64,000 nucleotides of DNA from Geothrix terrae (lineage in GTDB: Bacteria > Acidobacteriota > Holophagae > Holophagales > Holophagaceae), in assembly GCF_022808775.1 (NCBI RefSeq), contig NZ_JAKZLA010000003.1:124001-188000 (forward strand), written 5' to 3'. The notes beneath the pieces were generated by a model. It saw only the letters and a list, made by a program, of their open reading frames with translations. It did not search any database and was not told where the DNA came from. A program made the translations under genes and the position numbers. Positions 20,537 to 30,658 of the stretch are shown piece after piece. Positions within the stretch are counted from its first letter, which is position 1. Each line of letters starts with the position of its first letter.

Positions 20537-20570
20537 ACGAAAAAGCTCCGCCGCTGGCGGGCTTTTTCGT
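20537..20570 (+). terminator. thiC terminator
   Basis: A stem with A-rich and T-rich flanks (ACGAAAAAGC and GCTTTTTCGT around a CCGCC/GGCGG core with one bulged T) lies after the repeated thiC tail. Confidence 0.85.
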
Positions 20571-20619
20571 AGGCGGACGCGTATGATCGGAGCGGTTCCA
20601 TCACCCCAAGGAGGCAGAC

Positions 20620-21201
20620 ATGGCCGCGAAGAAAATCCTCATGCTCGTGGGCGATTTCGGGGAGGACTACGAAATCATGGTGCCCTTCCAGGCCCTGCTG
20701 GCCGTGGGCCACACGGTCCACGCCGTATGCCCCGACAAGAAGGCCGGCGAGTCCGTGGCCACAGCCATCCACGACTTCGAGGGCCACCAGACCTACTCCG
20801 AGAAGCCCGGCCACCGCTTCGCCCTCAACGCCACCTTCGCCGACATCAAGCCAGACCAGTACGACGCCCTGGTGATCCCCGGCGGCCGTGCCCCCGAGTA
20901 CCTGCGCCTCAACCCCAAGGTGCTGGAGATCGTCCGCCACTTCTTCACCGCCAAGAAGCCCGTGGCGGCCATCTGCCACGGCGCCCAGATCCTCTCCGCC
21001 GCGGGCGTGCTGGAGGGGCGCACCTGCTCGGCCTATCCCGCCTGCCGCGCGGAGGTGGAAGTGGCCAAGGGCAAGTACGCCGACATCGCCATCGACGGCG
21101 CCATCACGGACGGGAACCTGGTCACCGCCCCCGCCTGGCCCGCCCATCCCGCCTGGATCGCCCAGTTCCTGCAGGTGCTCGGGACCCGCATCACGCTTTG
21201 A
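20620..21201 (+). CDS. DJ-1/PfpI-family protein
   Basis: The 193-residue product has the class I amidotransferase-like fold: [13 protein letters not shown] at the start (with the acidic residue that activates the Cys), [13 protein letters not shown], and the nucleophile elbow [10 protein letters not shown] with Cys near residue 120. Family members act as proteases, deglycases or chaperones, and sequence alone cannot choose. GGAGG lies 9 bases before the ATG. It is a single gene between the thiC terminator and the SAM riboswitch. Confidence 0.9.
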
Positions 21202-23404: not shown

Positions 23405-24652
23405 TTATTGGTAGATCAACACCTCACACTCGCGCATCGATGTGTAACTAGCCGAAATATAGTTATAACCACCTGCAATCAGAAAACTTCCATCCTTCAG
23501 TGGGGTGACTGTGTGATTGGACCTTGGGTATTTCAAGGTGGCTTGGAGGAGGTGGCTTTGCATCTTCGCGACATCCACCACCTCGATATCAGAGAGAAAT
23601 TGGGTATTCACATAGCCTGTGAAGGTTTCCCCTGCAACCAGCCCCACGGTTCCATCTGGGAAAAGAATGGCTTGATGTCCCATCCTCGCCTCCATCAAAG
23701 GGATGAGAACCATGGTTGAAGGAACGTTCGTGTAGTCGATGATCACTCCCTCTGCCAACACGCCCCCTGCAGAATGGATTCCAATCGGGAGCGAATAGGA
23801 GTACCCGCCAGCGACAAACACTTTGCCCGTCGGAAGATTTACTCCTGCGCCATGGGTGAAGGAGTAGGGCATCGTCCCCCCCCTAGAGGGGTTGGGAGGG
23901 CTCCCATCGGTCACATATTCATAGGCGGAATTCAGCTGGTGCCAGCCTCCCTCGCCATTCTCCCCGCCCATCAGCATGAAGTGCGATGGATCCAGAGCCA
24001 CGAGGGTGGCGTTCTGCTCTACGTCCATGAGGGCGAAGTCAAACTGGGCGAGGTGAGTGGCCGGATCGAACACTTCGGTAGAAAAATCCGAAGCTGTTAT
24101 CCCGACATTGTCGTCATAGCCACCGACAATCTGCACTTTCCCGTCTTGCCGAAGAAACAGTTTGCATCCGGGTCTCGGGACCACTGTGGAACCCACGACG
24201 GAGAAGGTTTTCGTATCGGGGTTCCATTCTTCTATTTCGCTGACGGGGAACCCGTTCCCCGAACTCAGCCCCGCTCCCCCGACCACAAGGACATGTCCAC
24301 TCGGCAGGAGAACCGCGTCATGCAGGAACCGGGGAATGTTTAGATTGCCTGCGGGCGAGAACGTCTTTGCGGCGGGATCATAGAGCTCTGCAAGCGCCAC
24401 AGTTCCCGAAAGGAGGGTGTGGCCGAGGGTCTCTCCCCCGACGATCAGCACCTTCCCATCGGAGAGCAGGGTCGCCGTATGCAAACGTCGGTCCTGGCTG
24501 AGGGACCCGGTTTCCTGAAGGGCCCATTGATGACTCGGCGGAGGGGGCGGGGGTGGGGGTGGGCTCGAAGCCGAAGGGGTCCCGGATCCACCAGTACAAT
24601 CGAGGAACAAAAGCGACAAGAATAGAGACATCCCCAGCGCTTGGCGCTTCAT
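23405..24652 (-). CDS. Kelch-repeat surface lipoprotein, lower GC than neighbours
   Basis: The 415-residue product starts with a hydrophobic signal ending LSLLFLDC, a possible though non-ideal lipobox, then a tract of nine prolines and several Kelch-type blades of about 50 residues. Blades end in VLIVGG, VLVVGG, VQIVGG, MLMGG, VFVAGG and FLIAGG, so it should fold as a beta-propeller. Ligand and role are unknown. Base composition and codon choice are visibly less GC-rich than the flanking genes, which suggests transfer. The proline tract is encoded by a G-rich template run at 24543-24563. Confidence 0.85.
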   Translation of the reverse strand: MKRQALGMSLFLSLLFLDCTGGSGTPSASSPPPPPPPPPSHQWALQETGSLSQDRRLHTATLLSDGKVLIVGGETLGHTLLSGTVALAELYDPAAKTFSPAGNLNIPRFLHDAVLLPSGHVLVVGGAGLSSGNGFPVSEIEEWNPDTKTFSVVGSTVVPRPGCKLFLRQDGKVQIVGGYDDNVGITASDFSTEVFDPATHLAQFDFALMDVEQNATLVALDPSHFMLMGGENGEGGWHQLNSAYEYVTDGSPPNPSRGGTMPYSFTHGAGVNLPTGKVFVAGGYSYSLPIGIHSAGGVLAEGVIIDYTNVPSTMVLIPLMEARMGHQAILFPDGTVGLVAGETFTGYVNTQFLSDIEVVDVAKMQSHLLQATLKYPRSNHTVTPLKDGSFLIAGGYNYISASYTSMRECEVLIYQ

Positions 24653-25158
24653 TGTAAGTTCCCCCTTGAATCCTTGGGTTCATTGTCAGATCGAGGAAGG
24701 GGCATCTGCCACTGGTTTTTGGCACACGCAAAAGCCCCAGAATCGTTGGATCCCAGGGCTTCGTTTGGGCTTCGAAGTGAATCCGGCCGACCAACTTCCC
24801 GGTGAGACGCATCTACAGATCCCCTGGTAACAGGCCATAAACAGGGAATGGCGCGAATATCGAATCGCCCTGATGGATCAGGTGGGCGTCCAAAGACCAG
24901 CCAGCCGTCATTATGGCACTCGTTCTCGGACGGATTCCCTGGGGAAGGATCAGGGAACAGCTCGAGACGAAACAGGGAACACCGCTAGCTGGAGACGAAA
25001 AGCCTCAGTAATAGCCCATAGCCCCTTGCGTGGAAGAGGCGCACCCGATCCGGGCCCGGAGTGGCTTGGAGAGATCCACCCCATGGGATTGTTCCGGTGA
25101 TCAGTCCTCCCCGGAACGGACGAGGGTTTGGAAGATGGCAGGGGTTGGGATCCGCCGT
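24653..25158. other. 506-bp stretch without a recognisable gene
   Basis: Only short open frames occur, and none has a good start, a ribosome binding site or a recognisable product. Composition is less GC-rich near the Kelch gene. It may contain the promoter of the Kelch gene and decayed sequence. I see no RNA gene. Confidence 0.5.
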
Positions 25159-25866
25159 TCAGGCCGCATCCTGGAAGATCAGGCCCAGCACATGGCGCCG
25201 CCCGGCCCGCACCTCGCTCACGCCGTGCCGCACACGCACCTGGTGGAAGCCGCGTTCCCCGCGGCCAGGCCGGACGTGGCTCGGGAAGATCAGGGCCTCG
25301 CCCTGGGCCGGGAGGAAGGCCAGGCCTCGGGACTGGGCCCGGGGGTGCTGCTCCACCAGCAGGAATTCGCCGCCCTCGTAGTCCAGCCCGGGATCATCGA
25401 GGAAGACCGCCATCTGCAGCGGAAAGGCGAGGTCTCCGTAGAGGTCCTGGTGCAGACAGTTGTGGTCCCCGGGGCCGTAGCGCAAGAGCAGGGGCGTGGG
25501 ACGCGTCTGCCCCGCGGCGGCGCAGGCCTCCAGGAAGGCCGCATGGGTGGGCGGAAACCGCACCGACTGACGCAGGGCCTCCATCCAGGCATTCGCCAGG
25601 GGGACCAGCCCGGCGTAGACCTCCGAACGCAGGGCCTGCACCAGAGACGGCAGAGGTGCGGCGAAGTACTTGTATTCCCCCTTTCCGAAGCGGTGACGGG
25701 CCATGTCGATGCGGCTGCGGAAGACCCCCGTGTCGTAGGTGGCGGCAAGCTTCTGACAGGCTGCAGGCGCCAGCAGGCCGGGGATTCGGGCCACGCCGCG
25801 AGACCAGAGCTCCTCCTGGACCCGATCCCAGGGAAGGGCGTGGACATCGGGGCTCATGGGGTGCAT
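25159..25866 (-). CDS. 2-oxoglutarate/Fe(II)-dependent oxygenase
   Basis: The 235-residue product ends with a prolyl-hydroxylase-like jelly roll. The iron ligands are the HxD in NCLHQDLYG (about residues 150-154) and the distal His in GFHQVRVRHGVSEVRAGRR, whose later Arg would bind 2-oxoglutarate. It belongs to the group of uncharacterised bacterial 2OG oxygenases. The ATG at 25866 has AGGAG eight bases before it; longer reading frames upstream lack family sequence. It lies next to a broken short-chain dehydrogenase on the same strand. Confidence 0.85.
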   Translation of the reverse strand: MHPMSPDVHALPWDRVQEELWSRGVARIPGLLAPAACQKLAATYDTGVFRSRIDMARHRFGKGEYKYFAAPLPSLVQALRSEVYAGLVPLANAWMEALRQSVRFPPTHAAFLEACAAAGQTRPTPLLLRYGPGDHNCLHQDLYGDLAFPLQMAVFLDDPGLDYEGGEFLLVEQHPRAQSRGLAFLPAQGEALIFPSHVRPGRGERGFHQVRVRHGVSEVRAGRRHVLGLIFQDAA

Positions 25867-26037
25867 CTCGGAAGCTCCTGGGTCGTCCTGCGTCGAAGGT
25901 GGGGCGCCGGAGATCCGCGACCCACCCGTCTGTTGCGCCGAGTGCGGTTGAGACGGATCGCCCGGGCCTTCATGGAGCCTCCGCCACAGGGGGATGGACC
26001 AGTCCATGGACGTCGCCTGGCACCGGCCAAGTCACCC

Positions 26038-26835
26038 TCATCCAAGGAAGGACCCGCCCGAGACGTCGAGGTACTGGCCCGTGATCCAGCGGCTTTCGGG
26101 ACCAGCGAGGAAAGCCGCCGCATCGGCCACCTCCTCGACCGTTCCCACTCGGCCGAGGGCGGACAGGGATTCCACGTAACGCCGGTTCCCGGAGTCGCTC
26201 AGCATTCGGGCGTTCATGTCCGTGTCGATGACGCCTGGGGCGAGCGCGTTCACCGTGATCCCGCGTGGGCCGAGTTCCTTCGCCAGCAGCAGACTCAGCG
26301 TGTCGATGGCGCCCTTGGTCATGGCCTAGGCGGCCTCCGGAGGGTAGGCCATGCGCGTCACCAGTGAGGACAGGTTGATGATCCTGCCGCCGTCGCGGAG
26401 CCTGGGGACCAGGGCCTGCAGCAGGAAGAAGGGAGCCTTCACGTTCACCGCGAACACTTCGTCGAAGGCGGCCTCCGTCGTCGCGCCCAGGGTTCCCTGG
26501 GAGGCGATCCCCGCGTTGTTGATGAGGATGTCCAGCCCGATGGAACCCAGCCGCCCGAGGAGTCCTTCCTCCAGCTCTCGGACGAGGCGCTCGATCCCAG
26601 CCATCGTGCCCAGATCGGCCTGGATGGCCCAGGCCGCTCCCGAGGCTCCCTCGATCTCTTCCACCAGAGCCTGGGCGGCAGCCTCCTCGCGCCGGTAGTG
26701 GATCACCGTGAAGGCACCTTCCCGGGCCAGGCGCAGGGCGATGGCCCTCCCGATCCCCCGACTCGCGCCCGTCACCAGCGCGACCTTTCCCCCCAGGCGC
26801 CTGCCCGGGATCCCGTATTCCAGTCCTGCGTTCAT
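26038..26835 (-). pseudogene. Short-chain dehydrogenase/reductase with an amber codon at the catalytic Tyr
   Basis: One reading frame of 265 codons gives an intact SDR: the TGASRGIG cofactor loop, the NNAG motif, the catalytic Ser in NLSSLV, and a normal C-terminus (TGQYLDVSGGSFLG). The codon at 26326-26328 is TAG. Counting from the catalytic Ser, it sits at +13, where the YxxxK tyrosine belongs, and the partner Lys follows at +17 (AMTK). A single base change from TAC or TAT explains it. An ATG two codons later could restart translation of the second half. GGAG precedes the start at 26835. It is a recent pseudogene unless the amber codon is suppressed. Confidence 0.85.
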
Positions 26836-27144
26836 AATCGCTCCTTGCTGAGGGCGCCCAAGAGGGCCCGCCCCCACCGTCCCGGAAAGAACGTCGCCCT
26901 GCATTCCGATCCTTGCGGTCGTGTGCGGCTTGAGATCGGTGCGTTCTCGGACTGGAGGCATCAGCCGAAGCGCAGATCGGCTAGGTTCAACCGTCAGCGC
27001 TTCGAGGAACCGTCCGATGGAGGCGCACCGGTCGGCTACTGGATCGAGGAATCACGGACGCCCGGACGCTGCGGGGATTCCAGCCTCCACCTCGGCGCTG
27101 CCCCGTTAATCAAACGCTCCACCGAGTTGGTGGGGCGTCTTGCC
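26836..27144. other. Non-coding stretch between the SDR pseudogene and the tRNA-Asn scar
   Basis: About 310 bases without a convincing gene. The short frames here have no recognisable product or ribosome binding site. Beyond the SDR promoter that must lie here, I see nothing. Confidence 0.5.
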
Positions 27145-27170
27145 TGGCTCCGGAGGAGGGATTTGAACCC
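27145..27170 (-). repeat. 26-bp copy of the tRNA-Asn 3' end (att-like)
   Basis: Identical to 27530-27555, which is the CCA, acceptor strand and part of the T-arm of the complete tRNA-Asn, and in the same orientation. A duplicated tRNA 3' end downstream of an intact tRNA is the footprint of tRNA-directed integration. Confidence 0.85.
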
Positions 27171-27455
27171 GTTGCCGGCATCCACTCGCGCTTCATCCGT
27201 TCCGGCAGCGCCCTGCGCTGCCGGAACAGCGCGCTCACGGGCCGGCCACCCTCCGCCTGACGCGCCCTGCCCCGCAGGGCGCTCCCGCTCCTCGCTACGC
27301 TCGCTCGCAGAATCGGAGCATCCGGGGGTTGCTCCCCAAGGGGTCCAGGTGAACCCAAAGGCGTGGGGATTTGAACCCGTTGCCGGCATCCACTCGCGCT
27401 TCATCCGTTCCGGCAGCGCCCCGCGCTGCCGGAACGGCGCGCTCGCGGGCCGGCT
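27158..27455. repeat. Two ~90-bp direct repeats with a hairpin
   Basis: Copies at 27158-27247 and 27366-27455 differ at only a few positions. Both start with the tRNA T-arm sequence (GGGATTTGAACCCG) and contain a 13-bp stem built from GTTCCGGCAGCGC and its complement. A further hairpin (GCGCCCTGC/GCAGGGCGC) lies between them near 27261-27281. Confidence 0.8.
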
Positions 27456-27460
27456 GCCAC

Positions 27461-27479
27461 TCGGGGGTTCAAATCCCTC
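27461..27479 (+). repeat. Inverted copy of the tRNA-Asn T-arm
   Basis: These 19 bases match the T-arm of the tRNA-Asn (27541-27559) in the opposite orientation. The sequence that follows does not complete an acceptor stem, so this is a fragment, not a gene. Confidence 0.75.
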
Positions 27480-27491
27480 GAATTCTCATCC

Positions 27492-27530
27492 AAAACAAGA
27501 AGAGGTCCCGGTGGGACCTCTTCTTGTTTT
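27492..27530 (-). terminator. Terminator directly after tRNA-Asn
   Basis: A perfect 18-bp stem (27492-27509 with 27513-27530) with a 3-nt loop and AAAA/TTTT ends. It begins at the tRNA CCA end, so it would terminate and help process the tRNA transcript; it could also stop transcription from the other side. Confidence 0.85.
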
Positions 27531-27605
27531 GGCTCCGGAGGAGGGATTTGAACCCCCGACCTAGTGATTAACAGTCACCCGCTCTGACCCCTGAGCTACT
27601 CCGGA
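27530..27605 (-). tRNA. tRNA-Asn (anticodon GTT), CCA encoded
   Basis: The minus strand folds into a standard 76-nt cloverleaf. The acceptor stem is TCCGGAG paired with CTCCGGA, the anticodon stem is GGTGA/TCACT around the loop CTGTTAA, and the T-arm loop is TTCAAAT. The anticodon GTT reads Asn codons. The 3' CCA is encoded. Confidence 0.97.
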
Positions 27606-29779: not shown

Positions 29780-30511
29780 TTACTTCTTGGCCTCTTCCTT
29801 CTTCTCGGCCTTCTTGGCAGCCTTCTTGGCCTTCTTCTCGGCCTTGGGGGCGGCTTCAGCCTTCTTCTCTTCGGCGGTCATGGCCTTCTTGGCCTCGGCC
29901 TTCTTCTCAGCCTTCTTCTCGGCCTTCTTCTCAGCCTTGGGCTCGGCCTTCTTCTCGGCCTTCTTCTCCTCGGAGGTCAGGGCCTTCTTCTCGGCGGCAG
30001 GAGCGGCGGGCTCGGCCTTCTTGGCAGCCTTCTTCGCCTTCTTGGCCTTCTTCTCGGCCTTGGGAGCGGCCTCGGCCTTCTTCTCTTCGGCGGTCATGGC
30101 CTTCTTGGCCTCGGCCTTCTTCTCAGCCTTCTTCTCGGCCTTCTTCTCTTCCTTCTTGGGCTCGGCCTTCTTCTCGGCCTTCTTCTCCTCGGAGGTCAGG
30201 GCCTTCTTCTCGGCGGCAGGGGCGGCGGGCTCGGCCTTCTTCTCGGCCTTCTTGTGGTGCTTCTTGGCCTTCTTCTCGGCCTTGGGGGCGGCTTCAGCCT
30301 TCTTCTCGGCCTTGGGAGCGGCCTCGGCCTTCTTCTCCTCGGCGACGGTCAGGGCCTTCTTGGCCTCTTCCTTCTTGGGCTCGGCCTTCTTCTCAGCCTT
30401 CTTCTCGGCCTTCTTGGTCTCGACCTTCTTCGCTTCAGGCTTCTTCGCCTCTTCCGCGAACACGGGGCTGATCAGAGCGGCGGCGACGAGCAGCGCAGCA
30501 AGCTTCTTCAT
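29780..30511 (-). CDS. Secreted Lys/Ala/Glu repeat protein
   Basis: The 243-residue product has a clear signal peptide (MKKLAALLVAAALISPVFA) and then only low-complexity sequence made of KKAE, KKAEP and EEKKA units. Two tandem units of about 70 residues repeat nearly exactly, each running from AEPAAPAAEKKALTSEEKK to AEKKAKKA. The sequence predicts long charged helix or disorder and a very high pI. No family can be assigned; composition recalls histone H1-like and spacer proteins. GGGAG precedes the ATG at 30511. Upstream lies an AT-rich patch (about 30578-30612) likely to hold the promoter. Confidence 0.85.
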   Translation of the reverse strand: MKKLAALLVAAALISPVFAEEAKKPEAKKVETKKAEKKAEKKAEPKKEEAKKALTVAEEKKAEAAPKAEKKAEAAPKAEKKAKKHHKKAEKKAEPAAPAAEKKALTSEEKKAEKKAEPKKEEKKAEKKAEKKAEAKKAMTAEEKKAEAAPKAEKKAKKAKKAAKKAEPAAPAAEKKALTSEEKKAEKKAEPKAEKKAEKKAEKKAEAKKAMTAEEKKAEAAPKAEKKAKKAAKKAEKKEEAKK

Positions 30512-30658
30512 GGGGGTTCTCCCTGGGTTGATCCGGCACGGCCGGAAGTGCCTCCAGGGTTGCATCATCCGGGCCAAATGTTAACATGATTGTAATCAAT
30601 ATTTATATAACGTGCGATCCTGGAAAGCCCGTTGCATTCTGCCACTCGTGGCAGCCTG

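Follow-up and report, generated by a model that had tools for sequence, protein, structure and literature searches.

The window, which is the whole 64,000-nucleotide stretch of DNA that was analysed, covers positions 124001-188000 of contig C8 in a Geothrix terrae genome of 14 contigs and 3.43 Mb in all. At 26038-26835 lies a gene of the classical short-chain dehydrogenase/reductase (SDR) family, whose frame is read on the minus strand from 26835 to 26038 and comprises 266 codons including the terminal stop, while the plus-strand frame at the same place is noise. Under translation table 11 this frame ends at codon 170, a TAG at 26328-26326. The features of the locus are given below.

26038..26835, minus strand: classical SDR gene (FabG/AntM-like), 265 codons plus stop, with TAG at codon 170; identified from the translation with TAG read as Tyr, from Pfam and from 3ICC
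26326..26328, minus strand: in-frame amber codon at the site of the catalytic Tyr (Y170); placed by codon comparison and by column statistics over 82 homologues
26329..26835, minus strand: N-terminal half of the SDR, 169 codons, the nucleotide-binding part with TGASRGIG, NNAG and S157, without the Tyr and Lys
26038..26322, minus strand: C-terminal ORF of 94 aa from the ATG at codon 172, with K174 and without the Tyr
25159..26007, minus strand: Oxygenase-NA / 2OG-Fe(II) family gene without internal stop, common to G. paludis, in the accessory block 24760-27246
27530..27605, minus strand: tRNA-Asn(GTT), at the edge of the variable region

In the mechanical list of open reading frames, the N-terminal half belongs to a longer ORF that starts at 26961. 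When the TAG was read as tyrosine, the frame gave a complete SDR of 265 amino acids, which the Pfam model adh_short_C2 matched over its full length (1.9e-57). The protein carries the cofactor motifs of classical SDRs, TGxxxGxG (here TGASRGIG) and NNAG, and also Ser157, Lys174 and a C-terminal segment like that of the family (PF13561/PF00106). Its best solved relatives were 3ICC (1.7e-82) and AntM, a ketoreductase of the antimycin pathway (7NM7, 1.2e-72), and it is about half identical to Streptomyces SDRs across its whole length. The closest NCBIfam model was PRK12747; against the specific NCBIfam equivalogs the protein scored 296 bits, below the curated cut-off of 376.

Codon 170 lies 13 residues after Ser157 and four before Lys174, which is itself at Ser157 +17. 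When the protein is aligned to 3ICC and 7NM7, position 170 stands opposite the Tyr of the YxxxK motif in both structures. Among 82 homologous loci, column 170 is Tyr in 81 and column 174 is Lys in 80. Thus, of the catalytic Ser, Tyr and Lys that mark an active classical SDR, S157 and K174 are kept, whereas a stop stands in place of the catalytic Tyr codon, unlike in the rest of the family. An earlier note had described an SDR complete apart from one TAG and had placed this TAG at the catalytic Tyr by its distance from Ser and Lys; both points were borne out, and the strand, which had been missing from that description, is now added.

The same note had proposed a comparison with orthologues in sister genomes. 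The orthologue in Geothrix paludis SG195 is colinear, shows 97% amino acid identity, is open throughout and has a TAC at codon 170. The copies of the two species differ in 36 codons (37 bases) over 798 bases, and identity to G. paludis over the block around the gene, 24760-27246, is 92.5%. Close orthologues of the SDR were found in only two of 47 Geothrix genomes, those of Geothrix terrae and G. paludis SG195, and a relative of 41-42% identity in two further ones. Accordingly, the only close orthologue among the 46 other Geothrix genomes encodes Tyr where G. terrae has UAG; no second strain with TAG was found in the 47-genome set or in viral contigs. As expected of a nonsense pseudogene, the gene is intact in a close relative and the disabling change is seen here alone. 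At A53 and R210, Geothrix terrae retains the residue that most Streptomyces relatives have and G. paludis does not, while at position 247 G. paludis keeps the majority Streptomyces residue and Geothrix terrae does not; the remaining differing residues favour neither species.

The gene is accessory, being present in 2 of 47 Geothrix genomes and lying beside a tRNA-Asn insertion hotspot. A 26-bp copy of the 3' end of the tRNA-Asn gene is found at 27145-27170, and an 89-bp direct repeat at 27158 and 27366. In G. paludis, about 28 kb are inserted between the block 24760-27246 and the tRNA-Asn gene, other Geothrix carry other contents at the hotspot (27145-27605), and one genome (G006) is without most of the stretch at about 23.1-27.5 kb. 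Fresh nonsense alleles are to be expected in dispensable genes of such variable regions. Two further observations were made in the window. A Kelch-repeat protein gene at 23405-24652 is absent from the syntenic place in both G. paludis and G006, and at 29780-30577 a lysine/alanine-rich repetitive protein is encoded, with EEKKAEKKAEPKK-like repeats that match each other at several offsets between species.

Selective constraint was evaluated against G. paludis using Nei-Gojobori counts. The part upstream of the stop gave a dN/dS of 0.133 and the part downstream one of 0.092; both fall in the range of intact neighbours, as thirteen neighbouring gene pairs gave values from 0 to 0.33. The lower value after the stop would be consistent either with a stop too young for relaxed constraint to show or with a gene that is not a pseudogene. 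Under neutrality, about 36 non-synonymous changes would be expected in the gene along one whole lineage since the split of the species, whereas nine separate the two copies in total, shared between both lineages. The stop would thus be younger than the species split, or absent from the organism. If all nine changes sit on its branch, it may have existed for at most roughly a quarter of that branch, which is a point estimate with no confidence bound. No second degenerative change was found in the SDR frame. The otherwise intact frame and the low dN/dS therefore indicate either a recent change or a consensus error. Because no second lesion is present, there is no independent sign that the gene is dead, and a mistake in the assembly would produce the same picture.

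The earlier note had also held that a random nonsense mutation would rarely hit this codon, which is only mildly true. Fifty-nine one-base changes can create a stop in this gene, two of them at Tyr170, but five at the Ser/Tyr/Lys triad as a whole; every one of these five is a transversion, so that the odds are somewhat lower. The match between stop and catalytic Tyr amounts to a mild coincidence, at the level of a few per cent and picked post hoc by a reader seeking striking cases, and it needs no special cause.

As the second of its two options, the earlier note had considered read-through of the stop, which would make the enzyme conditional. As in known cases of stop-codon recoding (amber suppression, pyrrolysine), an in-frame UAG stands here inside a conserved frame; both halves are conserved, and the stop replaces precisely the residue that would need to be inserted. 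Unlike in those systems, however, the UAG is not conserved in relatives, the sister species having a plain TAC, and neither a suppressor tRNA nor PylS was detected. A search for an amber-suppressor tRNA, as the note had advised, covered 71 matches to the tRNA model RF00005, with anticodons read by ARAGORN and, for a tRNA array on contig C14, also by Rfam; no tRNA with a CTA anticodon was found among them, among the ARAGORN calls or among the minor tRNAs of the array, in a genome that is 97.68% complete, so that a missing piece is possible. A DNA pattern for a CTA anticodon matched the genome at no more than four places, all of them background and none called as a tRNA. The best genome match to PylS scored 22.8 bits against a cut-off of 178, and RF1 is present (502.9 bits). 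TAG serves as a normal terminator, as in mglA, a neighbour in the window that ends in TAG in both species, and no other TAG-interrupted member was seen among the 20 SDR and 51 ABC-ATPase matches of the genome. The RNA past the stop folds less stably than its shuffles (z +1.77), which leaves no stable structure as a candidate recoding element. The claim of a conditional enzyme is thus unsupported, and decoding of the codon by read-through or as Tyr under some conditions appears scarcely credible. A special form of it, in which near-cognate tRNA-Tyr would occasionally decode the UAG as Tyr, so that dehydrogenase output would be tied to termination efficiency by a switch at the enzyme's own active site, is the most far-fetched of the readings considered. 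It is also conceivable that the gene now works in two pieces, the N-terminal half and a C-terminal half re-initiated at codon 172 both being made and acting jointly or apart. The downstream ATG that the earlier note had pointed out is real: TAGGCCATG places it 3 nt past the stop, a GGAGG stands 11 nt ahead of it, and Pfam SDR models still match each half, so that some re-initiation at codon 172 is conceivable. Yet neither half contains the catalytic Tyr, so that dehydrogenase activity cannot return, and the SD-like GGAGG (within PEA codons) and the ATG are ordinary codons of the intact sister gene, showing no adaptation and therefore giving no evidence for a split design. We regard this explanation as highly improbable.

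The main rival is that the stop arose from a sequencing or consensus error, or from a mutation that became fixed only in the culture used for sequencing, with an ordinary Tyr codon in the organism itself. This would account for a gene that looks fully constrained save for one base. The changed base, 26326, lies directly 3' of GGC on the plus strand, and this motif has been associated with a raised error rate in Illumina reads (PMC4872057), although the weight of this argument depends on platform and coverage. Moreover, neither the ORF comparison with G. paludis nor the survey of the genome's SDR and ABC families turned up another clear case of a stop-interrupted gene. However, at normal coverage, error-prone motifs seldom corrupt the majority consensus, while young pseudogenes that are real and carry a single stop are common in bacteria. 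Other flagged ORFs were considered as a sign of poor assembly and rejected, since they appear to be antisense frames or ORFs called from too early a start; 20560-21198 was checked directly, and L141_2774, L141_3646, L141_5880, L141_8841 and L139_9449 were judged only by their overlap with better-supported genes. Taken together, an error or culture mutation seems rather unlikely, and we infer that the organism truly carries this base. The sister Tyr codon, the intact remainder of the frame and the low dN/dS on both sides of the stop lend good support to the other proposal of the earlier note, a recent death by a single Tyr-to-stop change. The explanation that we consider probable is therefore an ordinary young pseudogene, an accessory SDR whose function was lost very recently in this strain through one Tyr-to-amber substitution.

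The tRNA array on contig C14 (157278-163603, that is, L119:9278-15603) contains well over 30 tRNA genes on one strand, covering nearly all amino acids, several of them degenerate, and is interrupted by genes for an RtcB RNA ligase (PF01139, 1.5e-123) and a Band_7/SPFH protein (PF01145). As a source of a suppressor it was rejected, because every readable anticodon is a sense anticodon. This includes the tRNAs missed by ARAGORN and read by eye at L119 9547, 12733, 14397, 14713 and 15345, and an uncertain Arg-TCT-like tRNA near L119 13670-13740, also read by eye. An analogue is the long tRNA operon of Anabaena, the repressor of which, TrcR, acts on rtcB and a slipin gene as well (PMC10272220). 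The array is possibly a stand-by set for tRNA supply and RNA repair.

In the young-pseudogene scenario, a single substitution would have turned the catalytic Tyr codon 170 into amber, translation would halt after residue 169, and the product would be without both the Tyr and the Lys of the catalytic triad and without the fold's C-terminal part. Because a truncated product misses these elements, no enzyme would be made, and what is made is predicted to be inactive. Nineteen other SDR-family matches in the genome are all free of internal stops, so redundancy is possible. The case resembles the young nonsense pseudogenes of bacterial genomes in having one premature stop, an intact sister orthologue and an accessory gene in a variable region, and differs solely in that the stop falls on a catalytic residue (two of the 59 possible changes). 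An annotation pipeline may report a pair of partial SDRs at this locus; neither of them should count as an enzyme. Stops that fall exactly on catalytic residues are to be expected now and then and need not imply recoding. Of little importance in itself, the locus would show, in a clear snapshot, how the loss of an accessory gene next to an integration hotspot begins.
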